From NCBI RefSeq assembly GCF_014842255.1, contig NZ_JACYVH010000003.1, positions 186,001-250,000 of the forward strand: a stretch of 64,000 nucleotides of DNA. The letters run 5' to 3'. The notes beneath the pieces are model-generated. The model was not told the origin of the DNA. It saw nothing but the letters and a program-made list of their open reading frames with translations, and searched no databases. This DNA is from Frigoribacterium sp. CFBP 13712 (lineage in GTDB: Bacteria; Actinomycetota; Actinomycetes; Actinomycetales; Microbacteriaceae). Positions 7,628 to 63,843 of this stretch are shown piece by piece. The translations under genes were made by a program, and so were the position numbers. The stretch's first letter is position 1. Every line of letters begins with the position of its first letter.

Positions 7628-7669
7628 CCGAGGAGGCGCGGCTCGGATACCGGCACCGCGCCTCCTCGG
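7628..7669. repeat. Full inverted copy of the GAGGAGGCGCG element, likely a bidirectional terminator
   Basis: CCGAGGAGGCGCGG (7628-7641) and its exact complement CCGCGCCTCCTCGG (7656-7669) form a 14-bp stem with a 14-base loop. It fills the gap between the convergent fabG and serB stops; outer bases TGACC/GGTCA at the two stop codons could extend the pairing. Confidence 0.85.
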
Positions 7670-7673
7670 CTGG

Positions 7674-8315
7674 TCAGCGGCCCGACAGGCCCATGACCGC
7701 GAGCACCTGCGAGAGCTCCGGGTCGGCCACCACGAGGTCGGCCTGCGCCCGCACCCGGGGCTTGGCGTTGAACGCGATCGAGAGCCCCGCGGCGCGCATC
7801 ATCTCGAGGTCGTTGGCCCCGTCGCCGACGGCGATCGTCTGACCGAGGGGGATGCCGAACTCGGTCGCCCAGGCCGTCAGGCACTCCGCCTTGACCGCGG
7901 CGTCGACGATCGGCCCGGTCGTCTCGCCGGTGAGCCGCCCGGAGGCGACGTCGAGTCGGTTCGCGCGCCACCGGTCGAGACCGAGCGACTCGGCCAGCGG
8001 GTCGAGGGTCTCGTGGAACCCGCCGGACACCACGGCCACACGACTGCCGTGCCGGTGCAACCCGGCCACGAGCTCGGCCGCGCCCGGAGTCGGACGCACA
8101 CGGGCGACGACGTCGTCGACGACCGAGACCGGCAGGCCCTCGAGCGTCTTGACGCGGGCGGCGAGGCTCTCGGCGAAGTCGAGCTCGCCCGCCATCGCGC
8201 TCTCGGTGATGCGGGCGACCTCGTCTCGCGAGCCCGCGGCCTCGGCGAGGAGGTCGATGACCTCGTCGCGGATCAGCGTGGAGTCGACGTCGAGGACGGT
8301 CAGGAAGCGCGGCAC
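7674..8315 (-). CDS. serB: Phosphoserine phosphatase SerB
   Basis: 213 residues of the HAD phosphatase family. DVDST at 9-13 holds the nucleophile Asp9 and acid Asp11, VVSGGF is the Ser motif, a conserved Lys lies in AVKAECL, and GDGANDLEMM is the Mg site. The order and the substrate-cap sequence fit SerB, the last step of serine synthesis; the protein lacks the N-terminal ACT domain found in some homologues. It starts with GTG at 8315. It ends at the inverted repeat shared with fabG. Confidence 0.9.
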   Translation of the reverse strand: MPRFLTVLDVDSTLIRDEVIDLLAEAAGSRDEVARITESAMAGELDFAESLAARVKTLEGLPVSVVDDVVARVRPTPGAAELVAGLHRHGSRVAVVSGGFHETLDPLAESLGLDRWRANRLDVASGRLTGETTGPIVDAAVKAECLTAWATEFGIPLGQTIAVGDGANDLEMMRAAGLSIAFNAKPRVRAQADLVVADPELSQVLAVMGLSGR

Positions 8316-8352
8316 CCGCTCAGCCTAGGGGTGCCGCCAGCGTGCTCGTCGC

Positions 8353-9594
8353 CTACTGGTCGACCCGCACGCCCTTGCCGACGACGGTGATGCCGGACGG
8401 GGTCACCGTGAAGCCGCGGGCCCGGTCGGCCTCGTGGTCGACGCCGACCGACGCGCCCTCGGCGATGACGACGTCCTTGTCGAGGATCGCGCGGTTCACC
8501 GTCGCGTTCGGCCCGATGTGGGCCCTCTCGAACACGACCGAGTCGATGACCTTCGAGCCGGAGTCGAGCGTGCTCCACGGCCCGAGCACGCTGCGTTCGA
8601 CGTGCGCGCCGGAGAGGAGCGAGCCGAGCGAGACGATGGAGTCGATGGTCGTGCCGAGGTTGCCGTGCCCGTCGCGCACGAACTTCGCCGGAGGCGAGTT
8701 CAGCTGCTGACTGAAGATGGGCCAGTCGGTGTTGTAGAGGTTGAAGATCGGCAACGCCGAGATCAGGTCGCGGTGCGCGTCGTAGAACGAGTCGATCGTG
8801 CCGACGTCGCGCCAGTAGTAGCGGTCGCGCTCCGTCGAGCCGGGGACCTCGTTGCGGTTCAGGTCGTAGACGGCCGCGTCGCCCCGCGAGACGAAGTCGG
8901 GGACGATGTCGCCGCCCATGTCGTGGTCGGAGTCGGCGTTCTCGCCGTCGCGCAGCACCGCGTCGATCAGGACGTCGGCGTCGAACACGTAGTTGCCCAT
9001 CGACGCCAGGATCTCGTCGGGGGAGTCGGGCAGACCGACCGCGTCCCTCGGCTTCTCGAGGAAGCGCCCGATGCGCGTCGGGTCGTCGGAGTCGACCTCG
9101 ATGACGCCGAACTGGTCGGCGAGGGAGATGGGCTGGCGGATCGCCGCCACCGTGACGCCGGCACCCGAGGCGATGTGCGCCTCGATCATCTGGGAGAAGT
9201 CCATGCGGTAGACGTGGTCGGCCCCGACGACGACGACGATGTCGGGCTTCTCGTCGCGGAGGAGGTTCAGGCTCTGCAGGATGGCGTCGGCGCTGCCGGC
9301 GAACCACCGCTTGCCGAGACGCTGCTGGGCGGGGACGGAGGCGACGTACGCCCCGAGGAGCCCCTCGATGGACCAGGTCTGCGAGACATGCCGGTCGAGG
9401 CTGTGCGATTTGTACTGCGTCAGCACGACGATCTGACGGAGACCCGAGTTGATCAGATTCGACAGGGCGAAGTCCACCAGACGGTAGTTGCCGCCGAAGG
9501 GCACGGCGGGCTTCGCCCGGTCGGCCGTCAGGGGCATGAGTCGCTTGCCTTCGCCGCCGGCGAGGACGATGCCGAAGATCTTCTTTGATGCCAT
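8353..9594 (-). CDS. glgC: Glucose-1-phosphate adenylyltransferase GlgC
   Basis: 413 residues. The N-terminal nucleotidyltransferase domain shows [26 protein letters not shown] and GADHVYRMD; the C-terminal part is a left-handed beta helix. It makes ADP-glucose from glucose-1-phosphate and ATP for glycogen and maltose-1-phosphate synthesis. It is divergently paired with the glycogen synthase gene glgM 47 bases away, so the two share a promoter region. A conventional actinobacterial glgC with intact substrate loops. Confidence 0.95.
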
Positions 9595-9628
9595 GAGGTC
9601 AGAATGGCACGTTTCGTCGCGGCACGAC

Positions 9629-9634: not shown

Positions 9635-9641
9635 GACTCTC

Positions 9642-10826
9642 GTGCGAGTCGATGTCATCACCAAGGAATATCCGCCGAACGTCTACGGAGGCGCCGGCGT
9701 CCACGTCGTCGAACTCGTCAAGGCCCTGCGCGAGTCGATAGACGTGCGTGTGCGCGCCCTCGGCGACGTCGACGACGAGCCGGGCACGACGGGCTACCCC
9801 GAGATCCCCGCCCTCGCGTCGGCGAATCCCACTCTGCGGACCCTCGGCAGCGACCTCCTCGCCGCCCAGGACGTCGCCGGTGCCGACGTCGTGCACAGCC
9901 ACACCTGGTACGCCAACGCGGCCGGCCAGCTGGCGCAGATGCTGCACGACGTGCCGCACGTGCTGACCGCTCACAGCCTCGAGCCCCTCCGCCCCTGGAA
10001 GGCCGAGCAGCTCGGCGGCGGCTACCGCGTGTCGAGCTGGATCGAGCGTCAGGCCTACGAGACCGCCGATGCGGTCATCGCGGTGAGCGAGGGCATGCGC
10101 CGCGACATCCTGCGGTCGTACCCCACCATCGACGAGGGCAAGGTCAGCGTCGTCTACAACGGGATCGACCTCGACGCCTGGCGCCCCGTCACCGACCACG
10201 ACGTCGTCCGGTCGCTCGGCATCGACCCCGACCGCCCGTCCGTGGTCTTCGTCGGTCGCATCACGCGGCAGAAGGGTCTGCCGTATCTGCTCCGCGCCGC
10301 GCGCCTCCTGCCTCCCGAGGTCCAGCTCGTCCTCTGCGCCGGAGCCCCCGACACCCCCGAGATCATGGCCGAGGTCACGGCCCTCGTGCACGAGCTGCAG
10401 GAGGCGCGGACCGGCGTCGTCTGGATCGATCGCGTGCTCCCGCGGCACGAGCTCAGCGCCGTGCTCACCTCGGCGACGACCTTCGTCTGCCCCTCGATCT
10501 ACGAGCCGCTCGGCATCGTGAACCTCGAGGCCATGGCCTGCGGCGTGCCCGTCGTCGGCTCGGGCACCGGCGGCATCCCCGAGGTCGTCGCCGACGGACT
10601 CACCGGGCGCGTCGTCCCCCTCGACCAGGCGCAGGACGGCACGGGGACGCCCACCGACCCCGATCGCTTCGTCCGGGACCTCGCCGGGATCCTCACCGAC
10701 GTCGTGTCAGACCCGGGCCTCGCGAAGCTGATGGGTCGAGCCGGCCGGATGCGCGCCGAGGCGGAGTTCTCGTGGTCGCGGATCGCCGAGCGGACCCTCG
10801 GGGTCTACGCCGGACTCCGTCGATAG
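9642..10826 (+). CDS. glgM: ADP-glucose-dependent glycosyltransferase (glycogen/maltose-1-phosphate synthase, GlgA/GlgM type)
   Basis: 394 residues of GT4 fold. The N-terminus VRVDVITKEYPPNVYGGAGVH is that of the Corynebacterium/Mycobacterium GlgA family, and the C-terminal nucleotide-sugar site shows EPLGIVNLEAMACGVPVVGSGTGGIPEVV. Mycobacterial members make maltose-1-phosphate from ADP-glucose, so either glycogen extension or maltose-1-phosphate synthesis is possible. The GTG at 9642 is chosen from the family N-terminus and the TACGGT box. Its TAG stop overlaps the -10 box of the next gene. Confidence 0.85.
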   Translation: MRVDVITKEYPPNVYGGAGVHVVELVKALRESIDVRVRALGDVDDEPGTTGYPEIPALASANPTLRTLGSDLLAAQDVAGADVVHSHTWYANAAGQLAQMLHDVPHVLTAHSLEPLRPWKAEQLGGGYRVSSWIERQAYETADAVIAVSEGMRRDILRSYPTIDEGKVSVVYNGIDLDAWRPVTDHDVVRSLGIDPDRPSVVFVGRITRQKGLPYLLRAARLLPPEVQLVLCAGAPDTPEIMAEVTALVHELQEARTGVVWIDRVLPRHELSAVLTSATTFVCPSIYEPLGIVNLEAMACGVPVVGSGTGGIPEVVADGLTGRVVPLDQAQDGTGTPTDPDRFVRDLAGILTDVVSDPGLAKLMGRAGRMRAEAEFSWSRIAERTLGVYAGLRR

Positions 10827-10829: not shown

Positions 10830-10835
10830 GGGGTC

Positions 10836-11621: not shown

Positions 11622-11622
11622 C

Positions 11623-11633
11623 CCGCGCCTCCT
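11623..11633. repeat. Single arm of the GAGGAGGCGCG element
   Basis: CCGCGCCTCCT starts two bases after the TGA stop of the ABC ATPase gene. No facing arm is visible. Position directly behind a stop codon matches other copies. Confidence 0.5.
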
Positions 11634-15664: not shown

Positions 15665-16740
15665 GGGTCGTCGTCGACTGCCGTTACATCCGGGTCGGGC
15701 GCCATGACGGCATCAGCCGCTTCACCGCGGGGGTGGTCGGGGCCCTGGCGACGACCCACGACGTGACCCTGCTCGTGAGCGACCTCCGGCAGCTCGACAA
15801 GCTGCCCGATCGACCGCACGTGCTCGTCAGCGCGCCCACGAGTCCCCTCGAGCCCCTCGTGGCGCTGCAGGTGAACCGTCTGCGACCCGACGTCGTGTGG
15901 TCGCCCATGCAGACGATGGGTTCGTTCGGGCGCCGCTACCCGCTCGTGCTCACGCTGCACGACCTCATCTACTACACCAACCGCACGCCGCCCCCCGAGT
16001 TCGCCCTGCCGATCCGGCTGCTCTGGCGGCTGTACCACCTCGCCTGGTGGCCGCAGCGACTGCTGCTGAACCGTGCCGATGCCGTCGTGACCGTCAGCCG
16101 GACGACCCTCGACGAGATGCGCCTCCATCGACTCACCCGCCGACCCGTCACGGTCGTGACCAACGCGGCGGACCCGGTCGAGGCCGCGCCCCCACGCGCG
16201 GCGCCTCGTCACCGCGACCTCGTCTACATGGGCTCGTTCATGCCGTACAAGAACGTGTCGGCGCTGGCGAGGGCGCTTCCGCTGCTCGACGGGTACCGGC
16301 TGCATCTGATGAGCCGGGTGTCGGAACGCGAGCGCGCCTCCTTGTCGGCCCTGGCCCCCGCCGGGTCGCTGGTGTTCCACGACGGCGCGAGCGACGACGA
16401 GTACCGCGACGTCCTGCTCGGTGCGACGGCGGTCGTGACGGCCTCGCGTGCTGAGGGCTTCGGCATCCCCCTGGTCGAGGGGATGGCGCTCGGCACCCCG
16501 GCCGTGGTCAGCGACATCCCGATCTTCCGCGAGATCGGCGGCGAGGCCGCGGTCTACTTCGACCCCGAGTCGCCGGCCTCGATCGCCGCGGCGGTGCGTC
16601 GGCTCGAGCGCGAGTGGGCCGCCCGGTCGACCGCCTCGATCGCCCAGGCCGCGCGATTCTCCTGGGACGCTTCGGCGTCGGCCCTCGCCGACGTGCTCGA
16701 GTCGGTCTCGGCGGCGCGCGGCACCACGACCCGCAGCTGA
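15661..16740 (+). CDS. Glycosyltransferase family 4 (mannosyltransferase-like)
   Basis: 359 residues, GT-B fold. The N-terminus VVDCRYIRVGRHDGISRFTAG and VLTLHDLIYY form the acceptor half; the donor-sugar site shows SRAEGFGIPLVEGMALGTPAVVSDIPIFREIGG (its Glu-rich EX7E motif is characteristic of GT4). Donor and acceptor are unknown; a cell-envelope sugar or polysaccharide step is plausible. Start overlaps the hydrolase stop by four bases. The much longer open frame back to 12085 runs antisense over treS and is not a gene. Confidence 0.87.
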   Translation: MRVVVDCRYIRVGRHDGISRFTAGVVGALATTHDVTLLVSDLRQLDKLPDRPHVLVSAPTSPLEPLVALQVNRLRPDVVWSPMQTMGSFGRRYPLVLTLHDLIYYTNRTPPPEFALPIRLLWRLYHLAWWPQRLLLNRADAVVTVSRTTLDEMRLHRLTRRPVTVVTNAADPVEAAPPRAAPRHRDLVYMGSFMPYKNVSALARALPLLDGYRLHLMSRVSERERASLSALAPAGSLVFHDGASDDEYRDVLLGATAVVTASRAEGFGIPLVEGMALGTPAVVSDIPIFREIGGEAAVYFDPESPASIAAAVRRLEREWAARSTASIAQAARFSWDASASALADVLESVSAARGTTTRS

Positions 16741-20470: not shown

Positions 20471-20494
20471 CCGCGCCTCCTCGACCTCTCGAGG
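20471..20494. repeat. Single arm of the GAGGAGGCGCG element merged with a short hairpin
   Basis: CCGCGCCTCCTCG starts at 20471, 7 bases after the carboxypeptidase stop. Its last bases join CCTCGA (20479-20484) and TCGAGG (20489-20494), making a small hairpin between convergent genes; a plausible weak terminator. Confidence 0.6.
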
Positions 20495-30557: not shown

Positions 30558-31946
30558 CTACGAGGCCGTCGCCGCGCCTCCTACGGTGAATCGGGCTCCG
30601 TGGTGCTCGGCGGGCAGCCGGTCGCCGCGTCCGAAGAGCTTCTGGCGGAGCGTGCCCGGCTCGTACCCGGTCGGGTAGACGCCGCGGGCCTGGAGCACCG
30701 GGATCACGTGCTCGACGATGTCCTCGAACGTGCCGGGCGTGATGGCGTAGGCGAGGTTGAAGCCGTCGACGTCCGTCTCGTCCACCCACTCCTGGAGCTG
30801 GTCGGCGATCTCCTCGCCCGAGCCCACGATGCGCGGTCCGAGGCCGCCGATGCCCGCCGCCTCGGCGATGTCGCGGATGGTCCACTCCCTGCCCGTGTCG
30901 CCCGCCTGCGCCTGGAAGTTGGCCAGCGCCGACTGGATCGCATTGCTCTCGACGTCGCCGACCGGGTCGTCGAGCGAGTAGGTCGAGAGGTCGACGCCCA
31001 TCCAGCCCGACATGAGCGTGAGGGCGCCCTCGTGCGACGCGTACCGCTGGTACTCCTCGTGCTTCGCCGCCGCCGCCTCGGGCGTCGCGTCGGTGATGAT
31101 CGTCAGCAGCGTGTAGATGCGCGCCGAGTAGCGGTCGCGCCCCGCCGCCTCGAGGGCGTCGCGCAGCTTCGCGACGGTCGCCGCGAGGCGCTCCTTCGTG
31201 GGCGCGGCGACGAAGATCGACTCGGCGTTCCCGGCGGCGAACCGGATGCCGCGGGGGGACGCCCCGGCCTGGTAGATGACCGGCGTCCGCTGCGGGCTGG
31301 GCTCGGCGATGTGGATGCCGGGCACCTTGTAGTACGTGCCGTCGTGATCGATCGAGTGCACCTTCGACGGGTCGGTGAAGACGCCGCTCTCGCGATCGCG
31401 GACGACGGCGTCGTCCTCCCACGACCCCTCCCAGAGCTTGTAGAGCACCTCGAGGTACTCGTCGGCCTGGTCGTAGCGCGTGTCGTGGTCGAGCTGGTCG
31501 TCGGCTCCCATGTTGCGGGCCGCGCTCGGCAGGTAGCCGGTGACGACGTTCCAGCCGACGCGCCCCTCCGTCAGGTGGTCGAGCGTCGACATGCGGCGGG
31601 CGAAGGGCACGGGGTGCTCGTAGGCCGTGCCGGCGGTGATCCCGAAGCCGAGGTGCTCGGTCGCGGCCGCCATGGCCGAGACGAGCAGGATGGGGTCGCC
31701 GACGGGGGTCTGGGTTCCGTTCCGCAGCGCGGCGTCGTGGTTCCCGCCGTAGACGTCGTAGGTGCCGAGCACGTCGGCGATGAAGAGCCCGTCGAAGACG
31801 CCCTTCTCGAGGAGGCGCGCGAGCGAGGTCCAGTAGCTCAGCTTCGTGTAGTCCGCCGAACGGTCGTCGGGGTGGCGCCACAGCCCGGGGGACTGGTGCC
31901 CCACGCAGTTCATGTCGAAGGCGTTGAACCGGATTCGTCGAGTCAT
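30558..31946 (-). CDS. FMN-dependent monooxygenase, NtaA/SnaA/DmoA family
   Basis: 462 residues of luciferase-like barrel. RIRFNAFDMNCVGHQSPGLWRHP at the start and EGRVGWNVVTGYLPSAARNMG are signatures of the NtaA/SnaA/DmoA group, which needs a separate flavin reductase; none is adjacent. Likely oxidises a small nitrogen- or sulfur-containing organic molecule. Start at ATG 31946. The last residues (VGGAATAS) are encoded by a partial 11-mer element. It lies next to, but in opposite orientation from, the permease/racemase pair and downstream of the XRE regulator. Confidence 0.88.
   Translation of the reverse strand: MTRRIRFNAFDMNCVGHQSPGLWRHPDDRSADYTKLSYWTSLARLLEKGVFDGLFIADVLGTYDVYGGNHDAALRNGTQTPVGDPILLVSAMAAATEHLGFGITAGTAYEHPVPFARRMSTLDHLTEGRVGWNVVTGYLPSAARNMGADDQLDHDTRYDQADEYLEVLYKLWEGSWEDDAVVRDRESGVFTDPSKVHSIDHDGTYYKVPGIHIAEPSPQRTPVIYQAGASPRGIRFAAGNAESIFVAAPTKERLAATVAKLRDALEAAGRDRYSARIYTLLTIITDATPEAAAAKHEEYQRYASHEGALTLMSGWMGVDLSTYSLDDPVGDVESNAIQSALANFQAQAGDTGREWTIRDIAEAAGIGGLGPRIVGSGEEIADQLQEWVDETDVDGFNLAYAITPGTFEDIVEHVIPVLQARGVYPTGYEPGTLRQKLFGRGDRLPAEHHGARFTVGGAATAS
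30572..30582. repeat. Single arm of the GAGGAGGCGCG element inside the monooxygenase 3' end
   Basis: CCGCGCCTCCT lies within the last eight codons of the monooxygenase gene and encodes part of VGGAAT. The C-terminal tail is probably variable between relatives. Confidence 0.4.
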
Positions 31947-32025: not shown

Positions 32026-32697
32026 TCAGGCCCCCGGGTGGACGATGAGCCAGGTGGCCACGGCGTCGACCGCGCCGAGGTTGCCGAGCCGGTGGGGCAG
32101 ATCGCACGGGAACGTCACGGAGTCGCCCGCCCCGACGACCACGCGCTCGTCGGGGAAGTCGATGGTGAGCTCGCCCGAGACGACGGTGCCGACCTCGTAC
32201 CCCTCGTGCGTGACGAGGTCGTTGACCCCGGTCGCCGAGGCTCCGGGCGGGTAGGTCGACTCGAAGAAGTCGACTCCGCGGAGGTGGCCGGGCGACAACC
32301 GCCGGAAGACCACCCCGTCGCCGAGCACGACCGGCCGGGTCTCGTCGGCCCGGGCGACGACCGGGCCCCGAGGAGGCGCGGTGTCGGTCTCGTCGAGCGC
32401 CCCCGCCGTCTCGGCCTCGAACACGTCCGCCAGCGGGACGCCCAGCACCTGCACGATGGTGAGCAGCCGGCTCACCGACGGCCGTCGAGCACCGCGTTCG
32501 AGCTGCGACACGGCGCTCGGCGAGATCTCGAGCCTGGCGGCGAGCGATCGCAACGACATGCCGCGGGCGAGGCGGAGCTCTCGGAGGCGCGACCCGAGCA
32601 CGGCCGCGTCGAGCTCGACGGGGTCGTGGGAGGGGCGGGGCAGGCGCGGAACGGTCACGGTTCGCCGATCGGTCGGGTGTGAAGCGACTGCTGTCAC
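32026..32697 (-). CDS. XRE-family transcriptional regulator with C-terminal cupin domain
   Basis: 223 residues. Helix-turn-helix at about 34-90 (LRELRLARGMSLRSLAARLEISPSAVSQLERG) and a cupin sensor at about 125-222 (TYPPGASATGV, HEGYEVGTVVSGELTID, GDSVTFPCDLPHRLGN). The linker TAPPRGPVV is encoded by a copy of the 11-mer element. GTG start at 32697 lies inside a TGTGAA-type palindrome, so it probably represses itself and the NCS1 permease gene read in the other direction. Ligand likely a substrate of that cluster. Confidence 0.9.
   Translation of the reverse strand: MTAVASHPTDRRTVTVPRLPRPSHDPVELDAAVLGSRLRELRLARGMSLRSLAARLEISPSAVSQLERGARRPSVSRLLTIVQVLGVPLADVFEAETAGALDETDTAPPRGPVVARADETRPVVLGDGVVFRRLSPGHLRGVDFFESTYPPGASATGVNDLVTHEGYEVGTVVSGELTIDFPDERVVVGAGDSVTFPCDLPHRLGNLGAVDAVATWLIVHPGA
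32368..32382. repeat. Single arm of the GAGGAGGCGCG element in the XRE-cupin linker
   Basis: CCGAGGAGGCGCGGT encodes, on the minus strand, TAPPR at the junction between the helix-turn-helix and cupin domains. A linker is a place where extra residues would be tolerated. Confidence 0.45.
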
Positions 32698-35168: not shown

Positions 35169-36416
35169 ATGTCGACCCCGGTGCCCGACGCCCCCACCGC
35201 CTCCCCCCGTGTCCGTCTCGGACGCGACGTCGTCGTGCTCGGCGTCATCGCCTTCTTCGTGATGGTCGGCTTCGGCGTCGTCGTGCCCGTGCTGCCCGTC
35301 TACGCCCGGAGCTTCGGGGTCGACAACACCCTGGTCGGCGCCGTCCTCTCGGCGTTCGCCCTGATGCGCCTCGTGGCGAGCCCCTTCGTCGGCAAGCTGC
35401 TCGACCGGGCCGGCGAGAGGCTGGTGCTCTCGGTGGGGATCGGCATCGTGGCCGTCTCGAGCGGTCTGGCCGGGCTGGCCGAGACGTACCCGCAGCTGCT
35501 GCTGCTGCGCGGACTCGGCGGCATCGGATCGGCCATGTTCAGCATCGCGGCCATGACCCTCCTGCTCGCCACGACGGCGCCCTCGCACCGGGCGCGCGCC
35601 ATCGGCTTCTACCAGGGCGGGTTCCTGGTCGGCGGCATGGCCGGGCCCGCTCTCGGCGGCGTGCTGGCGACGATCTCGCTGACGGCGCCGTTCTTCTTCT
35701 ACGCCGCCACGCTGCTGATCGCCGGTCTCGTGGGCGCCGTCCTGCTGCGCCCGGCGAGAGGGCGCACGTCGACGACCTCGACCGAGCCGCCCGTGCCGTT
35801 CGCCGTGGTGCTCCGCGACATCCGGTTCCGCGCCGCCTGCGTCGCGAGCTTCAGCCAAGGGTGGTCGTCGCTCGGCGTGCGGAGCGCGCTGGTGCCCGTC
35901 CTCGTCGTCGAGGTGCTCAAGGGCACGACCGCCTGGACGGGCATCGTATTCGCCGTGGCCGCCGTCGCGCAGACGCTCGCCCTCGCACCGGCGGCGAAGC
36001 TGGTCGACACGGTCGGTCGCCGCCCGGCGATGATCGGGGCGTTCGCCGTCGCGGCCGTGACCCTCGCGGCGGTGGCGTTCTCGACCGACATCGTGATGCT
36101 CGGCGTGCTGCTCGCGGTCTACGGCGTCGCGACGGCCTTCATGGGCACGGCCCCGGCGGCTCTGGTGGGCGACGCGGCGGGCGGCCGCGGCGGGCGCCCG
36201 GTGGCCGTCTTCTCGATGTGCTCGGACCTGGGCGCCATCGCGGGCCCGCTGGTGGCGGGGCTGCTCGTCGACACGACGTCGTACGCGGTCGCCTTCGGGT
36301 CGGCCGGGGCCCTGCTGGCCGTGAGCGCGATCATCTCGCTGCGCCTGCCCCGGGGTGCGGCACCGTCCCCGCAGACCGAGGAGGCGCGCCCCGGTTCCCC
36401 GGGACGCGCCTCCTGA
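35169..36416 (+). CDS. Major facilitator superfamily transporter
   Basis: 415 residues, 12 predicted helices. Helix 1 FFVMVGFGVVVPVLPVYARSFG, motif A-like SPFVGKLLDRAGERLVL after helix 2, and a second-half counterpart AKLVDTVGRRPAMIG. Probably a drug or metabolite efflux pump of the DHA1 type; substrate unknown. Its last 13 residues (TEEARPGSPGRAS) and stop codon lie in or touch a full inverted copy of the dispersed element, so the C-terminal tail seems to have been created by the element. Confidence 0.87.
   Translation: MSTPVPDAPTASPRVRLGRDVVVLGVIAFFVMVGFGVVVPVLPVYARSFGVDNTLVGAVLSAFALMRLVASPFVGKLLDRAGERLVLSVGIGIVAVSSGLAGLAETYPQLLLLRGLGGIGSAMFSIAAMTLLLATTAPSHRARAIGFYQGGFLVGGMAGPALGGVLATISLTAPFFFYAATLLIAGLVGAVLLRPARGRTSTTSTEPPVPFAVVLRDIRFRAACVASFSQGWSSLGVRSALVPVLVVEVLKGTTAWTGIVFAVAAVAQTLALAPAAKLVDTVGRRPAMIGAFAVAAVTLAAVAFSTDIVMLGVLLAVYGVATAFMGTAPAALVGDAAGGRGGRPVAVFSMCSDLGAIAGPLVAGLLVDTTSYAVAFGSAGALLAVSAIISLRLPRGAAPSPQTEEARPGSPGRAS
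36378..36414. repeat. Full inverted copy of the GAGGAGGCGCG element at the MFS 3' end
   Basis: AGGAGGCGCG (36379-36388) and CGCGCCTCCT (36405-36414) with inner CCCCGG/CCGGG pairing. Nearly identical over about 35 bases to the copy at 63808-63842. It contains the last MFS codons (stop 36414-36416) and separates the convergent MFS and NDH-2 genes. Confidence 0.85.
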
Positions 36417-41783: not shown

Positions 41784-43120
41784 GGTCGTGGGCCCGCCCC
41801 CGAGTCCCCACGCTCCCGGGCGCCGGGCGTCTGCCGATGCTGCACGACACCGCCACCGGCAGGCGCCGCGCCCCCGCGATCGTCGACGGCACGGCATCGT
41901 TGTACGTCTGCGGCATCACCCCCTACGACGCCACCCACCTCGGGCACGCGTCGACCTACCTCGCGTTCGACACGCTCGTCCGCGTCTGGACGGACGCGGG
42001 CGTCGACGTCACGTACGCACAGAACACGACGGACGTCGACGATCCGCTCCTCGAGCGGGCGACCGCGACGGGCGTCGACTGGCGCGAGCTGGCGGCCTCC
42101 CAGACCGACCTCTTCCGCTCCGACATGGAGCACCTCGCCGTCGTGCCGCCGACGCACTACGTCGCCGTGACGGACGTCGTGACGGACGTCGCCCGAGCCG
42201 TGGCGCGCCTCCTCGACTCCGGATCCGCGTACCGCGTGCCCACCGAGGGCTCCGCGGTCGACGACGTCTACTTCGACGTCCGGGCCGCCGAACGCGACAC
42301 GTCGTGGCACCTCGGGCTCGAGAGCCGACTCGACCCCGAGACCATGGCGCGTTTCTCCGCCGAACGCGGCGGCGACCCCGGCCGCGCGGGCAAGCGCGAC
42401 CCGCTCGACCCCCTCCTGTGGCGGGGCGCCCGGGAGGGCGAGCCCTCCTGGGAGTCCCCGGTCGGCGAGGGGAGGCCCGGCTGGCACATCGAGTGCACGG
42501 TGATCGCCGAGCAGACCCTCGCCTCGCCGATCACGGTCAACGGCGGTGGCAGCGACCTGGTGTTCCCGCATCACGAGATGAGCGCGGCGCACGGCCAGGC
42601 GCTGACGGGGGGGCGCTACGCCGACCTGTTCGCCCACACGGGCATGGTGGCGTATCAGGGCGAGAAGATGAGCAAGTCGCTCGGCAACCTCGTGAAGGTG
42701 AGCGAGCTCGTCGCCGGCGGGGCCGACGCCAGGGCCGTGCGCCTCGCCGTGGCCGCGCACCACTACCGGTCCGACTGGGAGTGGTTCGACAGCGACCTCG
42801 TCGACGCCGAGGCCCGCCTGCGCGTCTGGGAGACGTGGGCCGACACCGCGCCGCCGCGGCCCGACGCCGCTGCGGACCACGCGACGACGTCGCCCCTCGG
42901 CGCGACCCCGGTCGAGTCCGTCCCCACCGGTCTGCTGACGAGCCTCCGCGCCGCCCTCGCCGACGACCTCGACACGCCGTCCGCGCTCGAGGCCGTGGAC
43001 CGCTGGATCGCCTCCGGCGCCGACGCGACGTCCGTCGACCTCGACGCCGTCACCGCTCTGCTCGGCGTGGACCTGCTCGGCGTCGACCTGCCATCCCGTG
43101 CTGACGAGGCCACTGCCTGA
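41780..43120 (+). CDS. mshC: Cysteine ligase MshC of mycothiol synthesis
   Basis: 446 residues, paralogue of cysteinyl-tRNA synthetase. Zn-ligand Cys44 in YVCGITPYDATHLGHAST, HIGH-like HLGH (53-56), and KMSKSLGNLVKV are visible, and there is no tRNA-binding C-terminal domain. It joins cysteine to glucosaminyl-inositol in the mycothiol pathway. GTG start overlaps uppP by four bases. Its presence supports an actinobacterial host. Confidence 0.93.
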   Translation: MRSWARPRVPTLPGAGRLPMLHDTATGRRRAPAIVDGTASLYVCGITPYDATHLGHASTYLAFDTLVRVWTDAGVDVTYAQNTTDVDDPLLERATATGVDWRELAASQTDLFRSDMEHLAVVPPTHYVAVTDVVTDVARAVARLLDSGSAYRVPTEGSAVDDVYFDVRAAERDTSWHLGLESRLDPETMARFSAERGGDPGRAGKRDPLDPLLWRGAREGEPSWESPVGEGRPGWHIECTVIAEQTLASPITVNGGGSDLVFPHHEMSAAHGQALTGGRYADLFAHTGMVAYQGEKMSKSLGNLVKVSELVAGGADARAVRLAVAAHHYRSDWEWFDSDLVDAEARLRVWETWADTAPPRPDAAADHATTSPLGATPVESVPTGLLTSLRAALADDLDTPSALEAVDRWIASGADATSVDLDAVTALLGVDLLGVDLPSRADEATA

Positions 43121-45267: not shown

Positions 45268-48110
<2,843 letters not shown>

Positions 48111-52409: not shown

Positions 52410-54911
52410 ATGAGCACCGAAGCGAGCCCCGCCGAACGATTCGCCGCCTCGAAGAACAGGGTGCGCACGCCGCAGCTGCAGTCGTTCCGCTCCCGTCTCG
52501 GCTTCGCCCTCGATCCGTTCCAGATCGCCGCATGCGAGTCGGTCGAACAGGGCAACAGCGTGCTCGTGGCCGCCCCGACCGGGGCCGGCAAGACCCTCGT
52601 CGCCGAGTTCGCGATCCATCTCGCCATGCAGCAGGCCCGCGACAAGGTCTTCTACACGGCGCCGATGAAGGCGCTCAGCAACCAGAAGTTCCAAGAGCTC
52701 GTGGCCGAGTACGGTGCGTCCGAGGTGGGCCTGCTGACCGGCGACACGAACGTCAACTCCCGTGCGCGCATCGTCGTGATGACGACCGAGGTGCTCCGCA
52801 ACATGATCTACGCGGGGTCCGAGATGCTCGACGACCTCCGCTACGTCGTGCTCGACGAGGTGCACTTCCTGGCCGACCGGTTCCGGGGCGCCGTCTGGGA
52901 GGAGGTCATCATCCACCTCCCGCTCGACGTCCGTCTCGTGTCCCTGAGCGCGACGGTCTCGAACGCCGAGGAGTTCGGCGACTGGCTGCAGACGGTGCGG
53001 GGAGGCACCGACGTCATCGTCTCGGAAGACCGCCCCGTGCCCCTCGACCAGCACGTCCTGGTCGGCGGCAAGTTCCTCGACCTCTTCGACTCGAGCGGCC
53101 AGGCGGCCACGAACCGCGTCAACCCCGAGCTGCTGCGGGCCACATCCCTCTCGCGCAAGGGCGGGTCGGGTCGTCGAGGCGACGGCGGTTCGAGGCGTGG
53201 GCCGCGGGGCCATGTGATGGCCCCCATCCAGCAGGCTCAGGGCCGACTCGACCGCTGGAAGATCGTCGAGATGCTCGACGACCAGAATCTGCTGCCGGCC
53301 ATCTTCTTCGTCTTCAGCCGGGTGGGCTGCGATCAGGCGGTCAAGCAGGTCCTCCGATCCGGCATCCGACTGACGACCGCCGATCAACGCCAGGAGATCC
53401 GCGAGATCGTCGAGGCCCGGTGCCGCACGCTCCGCGACGAGGACCTCGCCGTGCTCGGCTACTGGCAGTGGCTCGACGGACTCGAACGCGGAGTGGCGGC
53501 GCACCACGCCGGTCTGCTCCCGGCGTTCAAGGAGGTCGTCGAAGAGCTCTTCCAGAAGAAGCTGGTCAAGGTCGTCTTCGCGACGGAGACCCTCGCCCTC
53601 GGCATCAACATGCCCGCCCGCACGGTCGTTCTCGAGAAGCTCGAGAAGTTCAACGGCGAGGCCAGGGTCCCGATCACCCCGGGGGAGTACACGCAGCTCA
53701 CGGGGCGTGCCGGTCGCCGCGGCATCGACGTCGAGGGCCATTCGCTCATCCAGTGGCAGCAGGGGCTCGACCCGCAGGCGGTCGCCTCCCTCGCATCGCG
53801 GCGCACGTACCCGATGAACTCCAGCTTCCGCCCGACGTACAACATGGCGGTCAACCTCATCGAGCAGTTCGGCCGTTCACGCACCCGTGAGGTGCTCGAG
53901 ACCTCGTTCGCGCAGTTCCAGGCCGACCGCTCGGTCGTCGATCTCGCCCGCAAGGTGCGCACGCAGCAGGCGAGTCTCGACGGCTACGCCGCGAGCATGG
54001 AGTGCCACCTCGGCGACTTCCGCCAGTACACGCTCATCCGTCGCGAGCTGGGCGACCTCGAGAAGCAGGGCGCGGCGCGGGCCGACGCCCAGTCGCGCAG
54101 CGAGCACGAGAAGCGTCAGCGCCGGCTGGGCGACCTGCGGCGTGAGATGCGTCAGCACCCGTGCCACGCCTGCCCCGATCGCGAGCAGCACGCCCGGTGG
54201 TCCGAGCGGTGGTTCAAGCTCAAGAAGCAGACCGATCAGCTGTCGGCGCAGATCCGCAGCCGCACGGGTGCGGTGGCGAAGGTCTTCGACCGGGTGACCG
54301 ACGTGCTGCTCGACCGGGGGTATCTCGTGCCCCGCGCCTCCTCGGAGTCCCGTCCGGCGTCGTCCCGAGGAGGCGCGGGTCGGCTCCCCGCGACCGTCGA
54401 GGTGGACGTCGCCCCGGCCGGGCGCACCCTTCGGCGCATCTACGGCGATCGCGATCTCCTGGTGGCCGAGTGCCTGCGACTGGGTCTCTGGAACATGCTC
54501 GACGTCCCCTCCCTGGCCGCGATGGCCGCCACGCTCGTCTACGAGCCGAGGCGTGACGAGGGGCAGCTCGCCGAGCGGTTCCTCCCGCGGGGCGAGTACC
54601 GGACGGCACTCGACGAGACGCAGAAGCTCTGGGCCGAGCTCGACGACCTCGAGCAGGAGCACCGGCTCCCGGGCAGCATCCCCCCGGCCCCCGGCCTCGC
54701 GCTGGCGATGCACCGGTGGGCACGGGGCGCCAGTCTCGACAGCGTCCTCGAGGACGCCGAACTGGCGGCCGGCGACTTCGTCCGCTGGACGAAGCAGACG
54801 ATCGACCTCCTCGACCAGCTGTCGGTGGTGGCCGATCTGCCGGTCGGTCCGACGGCGCGGCAGGCCCTCGACGCCGTCCGGCGCGGCATCGTCGCCTATT
54901 CGGCGGTCTGA
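52410..54911 (+). CDS. helY: HelY, Ski2/Mtr4-like DEAD/DEAH helicase
   Basis: 833 residues. Walker A APTGAGKT (55-62), DEVH (149-152), ETLALGINMPARTVV and TQLTGRAGRRGID give a Ski2-type SF2 core; a CHACPD cysteine pair lies near 590. RNA helicase of actinobacteria, probably in RNA turnover. Residues 641-657 (ASSESRPASSRGG region) are encoded by a perfect 15-bp inverted copy of the dispersed element inserted in frame, between the domain after the stalk and the final helical domain. ATG 52410, four bases after tatC. Confidence 0.93.
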   Translation: MSTEASPAERFAASKNRVRTPQLQSFRSRLGFALDPFQIAACESVEQGNSVLVAAPTGAGKTLVAEFAIHLAMQQARDKVFYTAPMKALSNQKFQELVAEYGASEVGLLTGDTNVNSRARIVVMTTEVLRNMIYAGSEMLDDLRYVVLDEVHFLADRFRGAVWEEVIIHLPLDVRLVSLSATVSNAEEFGDWLQTVRGGTDVIVSEDRPVPLDQHVLVGGKFLDLFDSSGQAATNRVNPELLRATSLSRKGGSGRRGDGGSRRGPRGHVMAPIQQAQGRLDRWKIVEMLDDQNLLPAIFFVFSRVGCDQAVKQVLRSGIRLTTADQRQEIREIVEARCRTLRDEDLAVLGYWQWLDGLERGVAAHHAGLLPAFKEVVEELFQKKLVKVVFATETLALGINMPARTVVLEKLEKFNGEARVPITPGEYTQLTGRAGRRGIDVEGHSLIQWQQGLDPQAVASLASRRTYPMNSSFRPTYNMAVNLIEQFGRSRTREVLETSFAQFQADRSVVDLARKVRTQQASLDGYAASMECHLGDFRQYTLIRRELGDLEKQGAARADAQSRSEHEKRQRRLGDLRREMRQHPCHACPDREQHARWSERWFKLKKQTDQLSAQIRSRTGAVAKVFDRVTDVLLDRGYLVPRASSESRPASSRGGAGRLPATVEVDVAPAGRTLRRIYGDRDLLVAECLRLGLWNMLDVPSLAAMAATLVYEPRRDEGQLAERFLPRGEYRTALDETQKLWAELDDLEQEHRLPGSIPPAPGLALAMHRWARGASLDSVLEDAELAAGDFVRWTKQTIDLLDQLSVVADLPVGPTARQALDAVRRGIVAYSAV
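54331..54379. repeat. Full inverted copy of the GAGGAGGCGCG element inside helY
   Basis: CCCGCGCCTCCTCGG (54331-54345) and CCGAGGAGGCGCGGG (54365-54379) are exact complements around a 19-base spacer, the longest arms in the window. The 49 bases stay in frame and encode a Ser/Arg/Gly-rich stretch in HelY. Confidence 0.9.
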
Positions 54912-59518: not shown

Positions 59519-59534
59519 CGGGGCTGGTCCTCAG

Positions 59535-60392: not shown

Positions 60393-60844
60393 CCGAGCGG
60401 GTCGTCCGGGCGACGTCTCGGTTGATAGTCGTCGACGACGACGGCCGGGTCCTGCTCATGCTGACCAAGGCCCCCGACACCAGCGGCGTCGCCCGCTGGA
60501 TCACACCCGGCGGGGGAGTCGACCCGGGTGAGACCCAGGCCGAAGCGGCCATCCGGGAGCTCCGCGAGGAGACCGGTCAGATCATCACCGACCCGGGCGA
60601 CGTCGTGTACGTCGAGGACTTCGTCGTCCCGTGGGACGACGCTGATCACACGCACGGTCACGCCGAGTTCTTCATCGTCAGACTGCCGCATTTCGAGATC
60701 GACGACGCCGGCTGGACGGACGACGAACGCGTCGACATCCTCGAGTCGCGCTGGTTCACGATCGACGAGCTCGACGGACTCGACGCGGCCGACGACGCCG
60801 TCGAACCGGCGGCGCTCGTGCCGCTGCTGCGCCGCATCCTCTGA
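60389..60844 (+). CDS. Nudix hydrolase
   Basis: 151 residues. Complete Nudix box GGGVDPGETQAEAAIRELREETG (residues about 43-65) and the substrate part EWD-like ESRWFTIDEL. Hydrolyses a nucleoside diphosphate derivative; specific substrate unknown. Overlaps the SDR gene by four bases and ends at a hairpin. Confidence 0.9.
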   Translation: MTERVVRATSRLIVVDDDGRVLLMLTKAPDTSGVARWITPGGGVDPGETQAEAAIRELREETGQIITDPGDVVYVEDFVVPWDDADHTHGHAEFFIVRLPHFEIDDAGWTDDERVDILESRWFTIDELDGLDAADDAVEPAALVPLLRRIL

Positions 60845-60881
60845 GTCGTTCCTCGACCGAGACCCCTTCTCGGCCGACTCA
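60842..60881 (+). terminator. Hairpin at the Nudix stop codon
   Basis: TGAGTCG (60842-60848, including the stop codon) faces CGACTCA (60875-60881), with an inner CCGAGA/TCTCGG stem (60857-60862 and 60868-60873). A bulged but stable hairpin likely ending the SDR-Nudix transcript. Confidence 0.65.
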
Positions 60882-60890
60882 GCACTGCGC

Positions 60891-60910
60891 TGATAATGCA
60901 CATTATGTCA
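60891..60910. promoter_or_regulatory. AT-rich palindrome, possible FUR-family operator
   Basis: TGATAATGCACATTATGTCA is an inverted repeat (ATAATG/CATTAT arms around CA) and unusually AT-rich for this chromosome. It includes GATAAT, a good -10, about 65 bases before the gene at 60963. Confidence 0.5.
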
Positions 60911-60935
60911 GCTTGCCGATCTCGAACACCCCTCT

Positions 60936-60948
60936 CGCGCCTCCTCGG
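60936..60948. repeat. Single arm of the GAGGAGGCGCG element upstream of the gene at 60963
   Basis: CGCGCCTCCTCGG lies 15 bases before the ATG; here the element is in a 5' leader. Confidence 0.5.
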
Positions 60949-60962
60949 TGTTGGCTCGACGC

Positions 60963-61466
60963 ATGACCAGCGCACCCCATGCACGCGACGCACACGACGA
61001 CGAGCGAGACGGCCCCGACGGTCGGCACCGCCGACCGGAGGGCCTCGACGACGCGACCGTCGACGCCCTCGGCGAGCTCTCGGCGGCCCTCGAGGTCGTC
61101 GAACAGGCCCGAGGGTTCCTCTACGGATTCCACCGGCTGACCGGCAAGGCCGACCTGGCCCTCGGCGACGCCGTCGAGAAGCTGCGGGCGGCCGGGCACG
61201 GCGAGATCGCCGACCAGCTCGACCGGGAGCTGATCGGACGCAACGTGATCGACGGGCGATGGACCTTCCAGATCGTCGAGGACTACGACGACGGCTACTA
61301 CGCGCTGTTCCAGGAGAGCGAGAAGAACGCTCGTGATGCTCTCGCCGGCGGCAGGAGACATCTGTTCGAGGCGGAGATGAAGGAGGCGCGGCGCACGCCG
61401 GGCCATCGCCACCATGCAGCGCTCCCCCACGACCCCGACGACGGGGAACCCCACGGTCCCGCCTGA
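60963..61466 (+). CDS. Conserved hypothetical protein
   Basis: 167 residues, mostly helical and charged, no membrane segment. N-terminal DAHDDERDGPDGRHRRPEGLDDATVDALGELSAALEVVEQARG and C-terminal FQIVEDYDDGYYALFQESEKNARDALAGGRRHLFEAEMKEARR resemble a conserved actinobacterial family of unknown function. ATG 60963 is preferred to TTG 60948. Its promoter region holds an AT-rich palindrome. Next gene folE begins 12 bases after its stop; whether it belongs with the folate genes is uncertain. Confidence 0.75.
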   Translation: MTSAPHARDAHDDERDGPDGRHRRPEGLDDATVDALGELSAALEVVEQARGFLYGFHRLTGKADLALGDAVEKLRAAGHGEIADQLDRELIGRNVIDGRWTFQIVEDYDDGYYALFQESEKNARDALAGGRRHLFEAEMKEARRTPGHRHHAALPHDPDDGEPHGPA

Positions 61467-61478
61467 GATGATGTCGGC

Positions 61479-62072
61479 ATGACGCCGATCGATCAGCCCC
61501 GAATCGAGGCCGCCGTCCGCGAGCTGCTGGCCGCCGTCGGCGAGGACCTCGCCCGTCCCGGCCTGGAGGCCACGCCGCGACGGGTCGCCGAGTCGTACGC
61601 GGAGTTCTTCTCCGGTGTCGGAGTGGACGCCGCGCAGGTCGTCCGCGACAGCGTCGTCGCCGCCGGAGCCGAGCAGTCGGGCGAGCTCGTGATCGTCCGC
61701 GACATCCGCTTCCGCTCGATGTGCGAGCACCACCTGCTCCCCTTCGTGGGCGTCGCCCACGTCGCCTACGTGCCCGGGCGCGAGATCGTCGGGTTGGGGG
61801 CGCTCCCCCGCCTGGTCGACACCGTGGCGTCGCGCGCCCAGCTGCAGGAGCGTCTCGGCGAGGAGATCGCGCAGGCGCTGAGCGACGGCGCCGAACCGAC
61901 CGGGGTGCTCGTCGTGCTCGACGCCGCGCACGGCTGCGTCACCACCCGCGGGCCGCGCCAGAGCGGCAGCAGCACGGTGACCCTGGCGAGCCGGGGCTCA
62001 CTGACCGACCCTGCGGCGAGGGCGGAGGCGATGGCGCTGATCGGCGCCCCGCACGACGGGCGCTCGGCGTGA
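61479..62072 (+). CDS. folE: GTP cyclohydrolase I FolE
   Basis: 197 residues. Zinc ligands Cys82 and His85 region (RSMCEHHLLPFVGVAHVAYVP) and Cys153 (HGCVTTRG), with LPRLVDTVASRAQLQERL. Makes dihydroneopterin triphosphate from GTP, the first step of folate synthesis. Starts ATG 61479; a weak GATGAT lies 6 bases upstream. Overlaps folP2-like gene by four bases (GTGA). Confidence 0.95.
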   Translation: MTPIDQPRIEAAVRELLAAVGEDLARPGLEATPRRVAESYAEFFSGVGVDAAQVVRDSVVAAGAEQSGELVIVRDIRFRSMCEHHLLPFVGVAHVAYVPGREIVGLGALPRLVDTVASRAQLQERLGEEIAQALSDGAEPTGVLVVLDAAHGCVTTRGPRQSGSSTVTLASRGSLTDPAARAEAMALIGAPHDGRSA

Positions 62073-63049
62073 CGGCGTCACCCGACCGGTGGGTCGAGGG
62101 CGCTACGGCCCCCTTCCTCCCCCCGCTGCACTCCCCCGTGCGACGGATCGGCCGGCGCACGTTCGACTTCTCCCGTCAGGTCGCGGTGATGGCGATCGTG
62201 AACCGCACCCCCGACTCGTTCTTCGACCAGGGCGCCACCTTCGCCCTCGACCGGGCCGTCGCGGCCGCCGTCCAGGCCGCCGACGACGGCGCCGACTGGG
62301 TCGACATCGGCGGTGTGCCGTTCGCGCCCGGGCCCGAGCTGCCCGGTGCTGAGGAGCTCGAGAGGGTCCTCCCGGTGGTCCGGGCCCTCTCGGCCCGCTC
62401 CGACGTCGTCGTCTCGGTCGACACCTTCCGGGCCGACGTCGCCGAGGCGGTCATCGCGGCCGGAGCCGGCGTGATCAACGACACCACGGGGCTGCACGAC
62501 CCGCGGCTGGCCGACGTCGTCGCCGACAGCGACGCGACGCTCGTGATCACCCACAGCCTGGCCGCACCGCGCCGTCCCCACCCGAGTCCGCACTACGACG
62601 ACGTGACCGTCGAGGTGATCGACTTCCTCCGCCGGCGGGTCGACCTCGCCCTCGAGCACGGCGTCCCCCTCGAGCGCATCGTGGTCGACCCGGGCCACGA
62701 TCTGAACAAGACGACGCGGCACACCCTCGACGTGACGCGCCGACTCGCCGAGGTCGCGGCTCTCGGCCACCCCGTGCTCGCCGCCGTGTCGAACAAGGAC
62801 TTCATCGGCGAATCGCTCGGGCGAGAGAAGCCCGACCGCCTGCCGGGTTCGTTGGCCGCGGCGACGGTGAGCATCATGCTCGGCGCCCGCATCGTCCGCA
62901 TGCACGACGTCAGAGCGGCCGTCGACGCCGTCCGCATGGTCGAGGCCATCGCGGGCTGGCGCGAGCCCGTCCGCGAGGTGCACAACCTGGGCCCCGAGTC
63001 CGCCCCTCGAGCCGGCGGGGTCTCCGACGCCGAGGAGGCGCGCTCATGA
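62069..63049 (+). CDS. Dihydropteroate synthase homologue of the FolP2 type
   Basis: 326 residues. The start of the barrel reads VAVMAIVNRTPDSFFDQGATF and DIGGVPFAPGPE, as in mycobacterial FolP2, rather than NVTPDSFSDGG and the ESTRPG motif of true DHPS. FolP2 of Mycobacterium lacks DHPS activity, so function here is uncertain. C-terminus SDAEEARS is encoded by a copy of the element. GTG start overlaps folE, stop overlaps the next gene (ATGA). Confidence 0.85.
   Translation: MTASPDRWVEGATAPFLPPLHSPVRRIGRRTFDFSRQVAVMAIVNRTPDSFFDQGATFALDRAVAAAVQAADDGADWVDIGGVPFAPGPELPGAEELERVLPVVRALSARSDVVVSVDTFRADVAEAVIAAGAGVINDTTGLHDPRLADVVADSDATLVITHSLAAPRRPHPSPHYDDVTVEVIDFLRRRVDLALEHGVPLERIVVDPGHDLNKTTRHTLDVTRRLAEVAALGHPVLAAVSNKDFIGESLGREKPDRLPGSLAAATVSIMLGARIVRMHDVRAAVDAVRMVEAIAGWREPVREVHNLGPESAPRAGGVSDAEEARS
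63031..63042. repeat. Single arm of the GAGGAGGCGCG element at the end of the folP2-like gene
   Basis: CGAGGAGGCGCG encodes EEAR in the last codons, 2 codons before the stop. Confidence 0.45.
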
Positions 63050-63807
63050 CCTCCCCGATCCTCACGAGGGTGCTCCCCGGCCCTCCCGAGCCGCTCGACC
63101 ACGAGGCGCTCGTGGCGCTCCTCTCCCCCGTCGACCGGAGCATCCCGCGGGTCGGCGCGAACGCCGTGTCCAGCATCGACGGCTCCGCCAGCGTCCACGG
63201 CCTGTCGGGAGGGCTCGGCAGCCCGGCCGATCTGCTCGTCTTCGATCTGCTCCGTCGCTTGTGCGATGTCGTGGTGGTCGGCGCCGGAACCGTGCGCTCC
63301 GAGGGGTACGGCGCGATGCGTCTGCACGACGACGACGTGGCCTGGCGCCGGTCGCACGACCTGCCCGATCACCCGGTGTTCGCGATCGTGTCCCGGTCGC
63401 TCGACCTCGATCCGTCGAGCGCCGTGTTCGCCGAGGCCCCGGTGCGCCCCCTCGTCGTCACGACGGAATCCTCACCGCGCGACGCGAGGTCGCGACTCGA
63501 GGGCGTGGCCGACGTGGTGGTCTGGGGTGCGGACCGGGTCGACCCGCGCCTCCTCGTGGCCCTGCTCGTCGAGAGGGGTCTGCCGCAGATCCACACCGAG
63601 GGCGGCCCGAGTCTGCTCGGCGACCTCGTCGACGCCGATCTGCTCGACGAGCTCAACGTGACCGTGTCGCCGACGCTCGTGGCCGGCGAGGGCCCGCGCA
63701 TCGTCTCCGGCTCCGGCGCGGGGGCGGTCCGCGGGATGACCCTCGATCACCTGCTCGCCTCCGAGGATGTGCTGCTGGCCAGGTACTCGCGCCGCCGTCC
63801 GACCTGA
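63046..63807 (+). CDS. RibD C-terminal domain (pyrimidine reductase-like) protein
   Basis: 253 residues of the RibD_C/DHFR-like fold: VGANAVSSIDGSASVHGLSGGLG at the start, VVVVGAGTVRSEGYGAMR, and TEGGPSLLGDLVDADLLDELNVTVSPTLV. These enzymes reduce pyrimidines in riboflavin synthesis or, in Mycobacterium, can act as a dihydrofolate reductase. No deaminase domain. Third gene of the folE operon, overlapping the folP2-like gene by four bases. Ends in TGA followed by a full element. Confidence 0.87.
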   Translation: MTSPILTRVLPGPPEPLDHEALVALLSPVDRSIPRVGANAVSSIDGSASVHGLSGGLGSPADLLVFDLLRRLCDVVVVGAGTVRSEGYGAMRLHDDDVAWRRSHDLPDHPVFAIVSRSLDLDPSSAVFAEAPVRPLVVTTESSPRDARSRLEGVADVVVWGADRVDPRLLVALLVERGLPQIHTEGGPSLLGDLVDADLLDELNVTVSPTLVAGEGPRIVSGSGAGAVRGMTLDHLLASEDVLLARYSRRRPT

Positions 63808-63843
63808 AGGAGGCGCGCCCCGGTTCTCGGGACGCGCCTCCTC
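63808..63843. repeat. Full inverted copy of the GAGGAGGCGCG element, convergent-gene terminator
   Basis: AGGAGGCGCG (63808-63817) and CGCGCCTCCT (63833-63842) start directly at the TGA stop of the reductase gene and end 18 bases before the HPr stop. About 34 bases are almost the same as the copy at 36379. Confidence 0.85.

Follow-up and report, generated by a model that had tools for sequence, protein, structure and literature searches.

To our knowledge, self-specific DNA uptake sequences have been documented only in two Gram-negative families, and the reason for their evolution has long been disputed. Neisseria meningitidis and Neisseria gonorrhoeae carry about 1,900 copies of the DNA uptake sequence (DUS) in 2.2-2.3 Mb; these copies occupy permissive sites of the core genome, are frequent in genes, often form terminator pairs and exist as dialects (excerpt of PMC3630211). 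Here, a 64,000-nucleotide stretch of Frigoribacterium sp. CFBP 13712 (contig NZ_JACYVH010000003.1, positions 186,001 to 250,000; hereafter the window) was analysed, in which a preliminary description had noted the dispersed 11-mer GAGGAGGCGCG and proposed a repetitive extragenic palindromic (REP)-like family, a terminator or an uptake motif. Among these three options, the uptake motif appeared to fit the sequence traits best. We tentatively propose that the word may serve self-DNA recognition throughout the genus, most probably as a DNA uptake sequence. In the open-access PMC literature, we found no description of the word, of uptake sequences in Actinobacteria or Gram-positives, or of competence in Frigoribacterium, and nothing relevant on Frigoribacterium repeats, PMC12823222 included.

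The source genome comprises 3,155,852 bases in 40 contigs. The 11-mer, its 10-base core AGGAGGCGCG and the 13-mer GAGGAGGCGCGGG were counted, with the reversed pattern as the control (G numbers denote genomes in the comparison, C contigs and L sampled DNA stretches). The 11-mer occurred 879 times in the genome (416 forward and 463 reverse) versus nine times for the reversed pattern (4 + 5), and the core occurred 1,492 times in 3.16 Mb, or once per 2.1 kb. A 452,173-base sample, consisting of the window and 20 stretches of contig C1, contained 119 copies of the 11-mer against 2.96 expected from a third-order and 28.0 from a sixth-order Markov model, and the top z-score among its 9-mers belonged to AGGAGGCGC. 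The preliminary description had staked its case on a count above the Markov expectation, and the observed count lay far above it. A larger pool of source DNA (652,173 bases) held 240 cores versus 7.8 expected. The word was also exact: CGAGGAGGCGCGG was found 112 times against 0.8 expected, whereas its one-base variants at interior positions were mostly no commoner than expected by chance. The 240 exact cores were accompanied by 315 occurrences of the 30 one-mismatch words taken together, versus 191 expected, and most of this excess came from the terminal position at either end. Likewise, single-base variants of the DUS are more numerous in Neisseria than the exact DUS (excerpt of PMC3630211).

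All 16 Frigoribacterium genomes of the genus sample, the source included, carried the core (513-1,570 copies; reversed control, 10-51). The family sample of 398 Microbacteriaceae genomes in 85 genera included ten Frigoribacterium genomes, which had 315-879 copies of the 11-mer, whereas the other 388 had no more than 116 each; that maximum was reached in G055 (reversed control, 33), and the next highest count was 78. In a phylum sample of 396 genomes, the 13-mer occurred 412 times in the source and at most 14 times in each of the other 395. A 20-mer scan of named genomes returned 35 stretches, 23 from Frigoribacterium and 12 from other taxa, and a 15-mer scan of viral sequences gave one match each among the matches listed. 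Searched through the related Microbacteriaceae, the word thus proved genus-wide in Frigoribacterium but not family-wide, other genera having another word.

This other word emerged from de novo word counts in 40 kb each of nine genomes from eight other genera, a weak test, as the Frigoribacterium word was missing from the top words of one of two 40-kb source samples. AGGAGGCGC was not enriched in these nine samples, and GGATGCCGC-type words were prominent in G001 and G008; CGGATGCCGC was therefore counted across the 398 family genomes. It far exceeded its reversed control in G345 (2,628 vs 76), G142 (2,441 vs 71), G102 (1,702 vs 50), G371 (1,696 vs 40), G063 (1,358 vs 36) and G001 (1,179 vs 20), and many other genomes of the family had several times the control. 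Control levels were seen, for example, in genera g5, g45 and g50, in the small-genome genera g11, g31 and g59, and in the ten Frigoribacterium genomes (24-43 vs 35-66). In the 40-kb samples, CGGATGCCGC was intragenic at 8 of 10 sites in G001 and 10 of 12 in G008, in both orientations. The two words share a GGA-GC frame and resemble dialectal forms of a single type. Microbacteriaceae might possibly have genus-specific uptake dialects (AGGAGGCGCG in Frigoribacterium, the CGGATGCCGC type in many sister genera) read by a Tad/Flp-type competence component, although we hold this wider proposal more loosely than that for Frigoribacterium. The pattern is compatible with uptake dialects and also with a chromosomal protein that co-evolves with its site. 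The latter belongs to the main rival explanation, possible but rather doubtful in our view, in which an abundant chromosomal protein specific to the lineage (a nucleoid organiser, insulator or transcription roadblock), with no role in uptake, binds the word, and selection maintains the sites, which crowd where they are least harmful. Lineage-specific words would also suit such a protein, but we know of no actinobacterial nucleoid protein with so long an exact site. Separately, the samples of G045 (L230-L231) and G008 (L222-L223) contained different, longer dispersed repeats.

To follow individual copies between species, positions 86001-350000 of source contig C3 were aligned to G330 (92% aligned, in blocks of 81-91% identity). 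The aligned span held 70 cores, one of which was in neither the coding nor the intergenic class. Among coding cores, 32 of 45 were identical in G330 (permuted 10-mers, 142 of 788); among intergenic cores, 12 of 24 were identical (permuted 10-mers, 26 of 99). At third codon positions, identity was 0.879 in the core, 0.689 in the flanks of the same sites and 0.637 in the controls, and in coding copies it was raised from about three bases before to eight bases after the 10-mer. Among 74 source copies, 46 were identical in G330 and 13, 3, 3 and 1 differed by one, two, three and four substitutions, respectively; the rest were three partial gaps and five copies without orthologous DNA, with no clean insertion. 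Conversely, 45 of 65 G330 copies were identical in the source, 10 had 1-6 substitutions, three were partial gaps, five had no orthologue and two, forming one pair, were clean gaps. In more distant congeners, sites were gained and lost through substitutions and small indels. These data bear on the suggestion of a family like REP or the bacterial interspersed mosaic elements (BIME), spread by a RAYT transposase. The copies are indeed dispersed, partly paired and partly extragenic; however, they differed between species by substitutions rather than insertions, the intragenic copies were constrained at third positions, and the interior one-base variants mostly occurred at chance level. The Y1 transposase/RAYT family PF01797 was found in none of the 16 Frigoribacterium genomes, so the IS200-like transposase sought as its partner was missing, and most copies were intragenic (107 of 190 cores in the 452-kb sample and 147 of 240 in the pool). 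The REP-like option was accordingly abandoned as very improbable. The same conservation and abundance would fit a chromosomal protein as well.

The placement of the copies was examined with gene calls from our own codon model, which were uncurated. Coding and intergenic copies had a common consensus, roughly A-C/G-C-C-G-AGGAGGCGCG-G-G-T-C, with a weaker preference further 3'. Cores in the pool were densest in convergent gaps (2.72 per kb), followed by tandem gaps (1.41), divergent gaps (0.61) and genes (0.25). Between genes, 79 of 112 stop-codon distances (71%; a copy between convergent genes contributing to both stops) were within 60 bases, whereas copies placed randomly in these gaps would give 37%. 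The link to gene ends claimed earlier held for intergenic copies, also outside the window. Of the 93 intergenic cores, 18 had an inverted partner, defined as a 9- or 10-of-10 match to AGGAGGCGCG within 45 bases, as did 15 of the 147 cores in genes; with a shuffled partner word, the count was 1 of 240. The 19 neighbour pairs less than 60 bases apart in the 452-kb sample comprised 11 "+-", 4 "-+", 3 "--" and 1 "++". Stretches of 70 bases at intergenic copies folded better than random gap stretches (mean -33.9 vs -29.2 kcal/mol, better strand). The crowding into convergent gaps, the closeness to stop codons and the more stable folding would all be expected of a family of transcription terminators, with inverted pairs as hairpins and single copies as half sites. 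Such a family is nevertheless unlikely, because most copies were intragenic and conserved at third codon positions, partners were found at few intergenic copies and also at intragenic ones, and termination does not need a single fixed word. The terminator option of the preliminary description thus survived for the paired minority of intergenic copies, whereas a hairpin at each site was not found. The avoidance of promoters, with the lowest intergenic density in divergent gaps, is a point in favour of a chromosomal protein.

Intragenic cores of the 452-kb sample lay 48 times sense and 59 times antisense, in several frames, and none of these 107 had AGG AGG as in-frame codons of the sense strand. 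AGGAGG is a perfect Shine-Dalgarno sequence, and one copy in the window (63032) lay directly 5' of a start codon, as if the word arose incidentally from Shine-Dalgarno sites, codon usage or base composition. This explanation is scarcely conceivable, since antisense copies were as common as sense copies, a start codon was within 20 bases in just 6 of 74 distances, and the other 388 family genomes had so few 11-mers. Of 56 copies in tandem gaps, 39 were antisense to transcription and 17 sense, perhaps because AGGAGG on the mRNA is a stray ribosome-binding site to be avoided. No replication polarity was detected (86+/80- on C1; 15+/22- and 20+/17- on either side of the terminus). Known Chi sites are skewed along replichores, so a Chi-like recombination hotspot is improbable, although the word is abundant, exact, intragenic and lineage-specific as Chi is; inverted pairs behind genes are also foreign to Chi. 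A reading as FtsK-orienting polar sequences (KOPS) was rejected, there being no strand skew along the replichore. The lack of polarity also speaks against a chromosomal protein, for which a benefit per site is hard to see at about 1,500 places in both orientations and several frames.

A block free of the word was found in G399, a genome in one contig of 3.71 Mb. The interval 2.36-2.46 Mb, picked for its extra secretion-type ATPases before any motif count, contained no core in 100 kb, where about 39 were expected at the genome rate. With edges set post hoc, the block extended over 2,180,001-2,463,234 (283 kb) and again had no core, versus 3.9 expected from its own composition; L287-L289 (60 kb, two cores) were excluded as a transition. 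For comparison, the next 76,766 bases held 35 cores and 15 other samples (300 kb) held 110. The block was slightly lower in G+C (0.64-0.70 per 10 kb where profiled) and contained a tRNA array and a tmRNA besides the extra ATPases. It had its own word, CATGCGCGGC, with 82 copies in 283 kb (77 intergenic) and one in 300 kb of the other samples; CATGCGCGGC was not enriched in any of the 398 family genomes in the count table. Another word, CGGGGGAG, was equally dense inside and outside the block (14.1 vs 13.3-14.3 per 100 kb), and the core deficit was therefore not a general lack of words. The genes of the block were ordinary metabolic ones; nine of ten proteins scanned had Pfam matches, and no integrase or transposase was among the ten. 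Probing the right edge revealed no orthologous place in five relatives, and hence no empty site. From its sequence, the block looks like acquired DNA.

Candidate genes for uptake were present. The comEA family was matched in all 16 Frigoribacterium genomes (13 above the curated cut-off), comEC was present in the source, to which that search was confined, and a Tad-type ATPase was found in all 16, typed by neighbour genes in the source and by similar score in the other 15. The Tad locus of the source encoded a T2SSE ATPase, a T2SSF protein and a TadE/G-like protein, and four of the seven proteins scanned had no Pfam match. PilB/PilT-like type IV pilus ATPases were found in 13 of 16 genomes and were missing in the source, G330 and G357, which suggests that the type IV pilus was lost in the clade of these three. 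In Micrococcus luteus, also an actinobacterium, comEA/comEC and Flp/Tad pili take part in transformation (excerpt of PMC6370729).

If the word is an uptake sequence, a DNA-binding part of the competence apparatus, such as a Tad/Flp pilus subunit or ComEA, would read the duplex word, and fragments bearing it would be preferentially taken up and recombined. The uptake bias would keep old copies exact, and new ones would build up at sites that tolerate a few substitutions. Several observations weigh against this reading. The source, G330 and G357 had 1,204-1,492 copies without PilB/PilT, which means that the word cannot in general be read by a type IVa pilus. The comEA, comEC and Tad genes alone, searched within the genus, do not explain a genus-specific word, and the competence of the genus, the biased uptake and the identity of the reader protein are all inferred. 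Copies were spaced no more evenly than at random (coefficient of variation 1.05 vs 0.98 for random placement). CGGATGCCGC was mainly intragenic in the G001 and G008 samples, without the inverted pairs, and any relationship to the Frigoribacterium word is conjectural. The motif-free DNA studied was one block, that of G399, whose edges were drawn after the counts, and a motif-free block is also compatible with any slowly accumulating chromosomal site. In addition, 17.9 kb of source C3 with no G330 counterpart had 0.22 cores per kb versus 0.28 elsewhere, with no clear lack. The sequence traits of uptake sequences were found (the lack in foreign DNA only by half), and the REP, Chi, KOPS and pure terminator readings each failed a test, but the function is deduced from sequence, which is to the credit of the chromosomal protein. 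We therefore rank the uptake sequence as tentative and the chromosomal protein as the more doubtful of the two. The small source contigs were uninformative on accessory DNA (10 cores in 20 kb of L250, 3 in 16 kb of L251 and none in 5.3 kb of L252).

Counting both strands, the window contained 16 exact copies of the 11-mer, against a mean of 0.46 and a maximum of 3 in 100 shuffles. With one mismatch there were 46 versus 11.4 expected, including matches at 2883 and 59562, near the two pairs that the preliminary description called degenerate. All 13 exact copies listed in the preliminary description were genuine, three had been overlooked, and its four inverted pairs were recovered (7630/7657, 36378/36405, 54333/54367 and 63807/63833). 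Its statement that most copies lie 0-25 bases from a stop codon did not hold: six of the 16 were intergenic, two were in the final 40 bases of a gene (36378 and 63032), and eight, including the whole 54333/54367 pair, were well within genes. The 63032 copy could have a double role as a ribosome-binding site. An Rfam scan of the window at gathering thresholds returned one tRNA only. The copies and cores are listed in Table 1.

Table 1. Copies of the Frigoribacterium word in the window (extended consensus, 18 bases: ACCG-AGGAGGCGCG-GGTC)
Position	Strand	Word	Context
7630..7640	+	exact GAGGAGGCGCG	left arm of inverted pair between convergent genes
7657..7667	-	exact GAGGAGGCGCG	right arm of 7630 pair
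10300..10309	-	AGGAGGCGCG core	intragenic
10399..10408	+	AGGAGGCGCG core	intragenic
11624..11633	-	AGGAGGCGCG core	intergenic, directly 3' of stop codon
14888..14898	+	exact GAGGAGGCGCG	within alpha/beta hydrolase gene
16333..16342	-	AGGAGGCGCG core	intragenic
20472..20482	-	exact GAGGAGGCGCG	between convergent genes, ~8 bases past stop codon
21531..21541	+	exact GAGGAGGCGCG	full 18-base extended consensus, within acyl-CoA dehydrogenase-like gene
30573..30582	-	AGGAGGCGCG core	gene 3' end
31809..31819	+	exact GAGGAGGCGCG	intragenic; overlooked earlier
32370..32380	+	exact GAGGAGGCGCG	intragenic
36378..36388	+	exact GAGGAGGCGCG	left pair arm, 3' end of MFS transporter gene, convergent with next gene
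36405..36414	-	AGGAGGCGCG core	right arm of 36378 pair
42204..42214	-	exact GAGGAGGCGCG	intragenic; overlooked earlier
47019..47029	-	exact GAGGAGGCGCG	intergenic, ~27 bases past stop codon
54333..54343	-	exact GAGGAGGCGCG	inverted pair within DSHCT/DEAD helicase gene
54367..54377	+	exact GAGGAGGCGCG	partner of 54333 in DSHCT/DEAD helicase gene
60936..60946	-	exact GAGGAGGCGCG	intergenic, adjoins dif-like site
61381..61390	+	AGGAGGCGCG core	intragenic
63032..63042	+	exact GAGGAGGCGCG	last bases of gene, directly 5' of next start codon
63545..63555	-	exact GAGGAGGCGCG	within RibD_C-domain gene; overlooked earlier
63808..63817	+	AGGAGGCGCG core	left arm of inverted pair between convergent genes
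63833..63843	-	exact GAGGAGGCGCG	right arm of 63808 pair

The window also contained the replication terminus, marked at 60900 (window ~60886-60913) by ACATTATGTCA, a dif-like site by comparison with the dif consensus. Around this site (window 60512-62130), CGGGGGAG changed strand, with 36+/0- on the left and 0+/25- on the right in 264 kb, so that it was always directed at the dif-like site in a KOPS-like manner. CGGGGGAG was mostly skewed in the G399 samples as well, with few exceptions there and on source C1. Elsewhere, stretch L013:15499-17728 held an array of 24 copies of TGTCCGTCGCGA, many at 39-base intervals.

If the proposed uptake sequence is real, it would extend such systems for the first time beyond the Neisseriaceae and Pasteurellaceae and into a Gram-positive phylum. 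An independent actinobacterial case, with another pilus and no outer membrane, would allow receptor bias to be distinguished from selection for safe recombination. Even without uptake, a ten-base word that is exact about 1,500 times genus-wide against codon constraint, and swapped in sister genera, requires a genome-wide reader, and we found no description of a reader of such a word. Among known systems, REP and BIME elements are likewise dispersed, partly paired and near gene ends, but the Frigoribacterium word has no RAYT and no insertions and is more than half intragenic. Chi and KOPS are also over-represented short words that act genome-wide, yet they are skewed along the chromosome and the Frigoribacterium word is not. 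The abundant lineage-specific palindrome HIP1 of cyanobacteria is similar in being hyper-abundant, exact, and both coding and non-coding, and differs in that the Frigoribacterium word is non-palindromic. The uptake signal sequences of Pasteurellaceae resemble it in their short core with weaker flanks, their abundance and their occurrence in either orientation; the word and flank composition are different, and their hosts are Gram-negative with demonstrated competence. In comparison with the DUS of Neisseriaceae, the host is an actinobacterium, the word is unrelated and known from sequence alone, no ComP-like receptor is known for Frigoribacterium, and three of the 16 genomes lack type IVa pilus ATPases, whereas the copy number, the intragenic and intergenic sites, the inverted pairs, the lineage-specific words and, judging from conservation, the core-genome location are alike.

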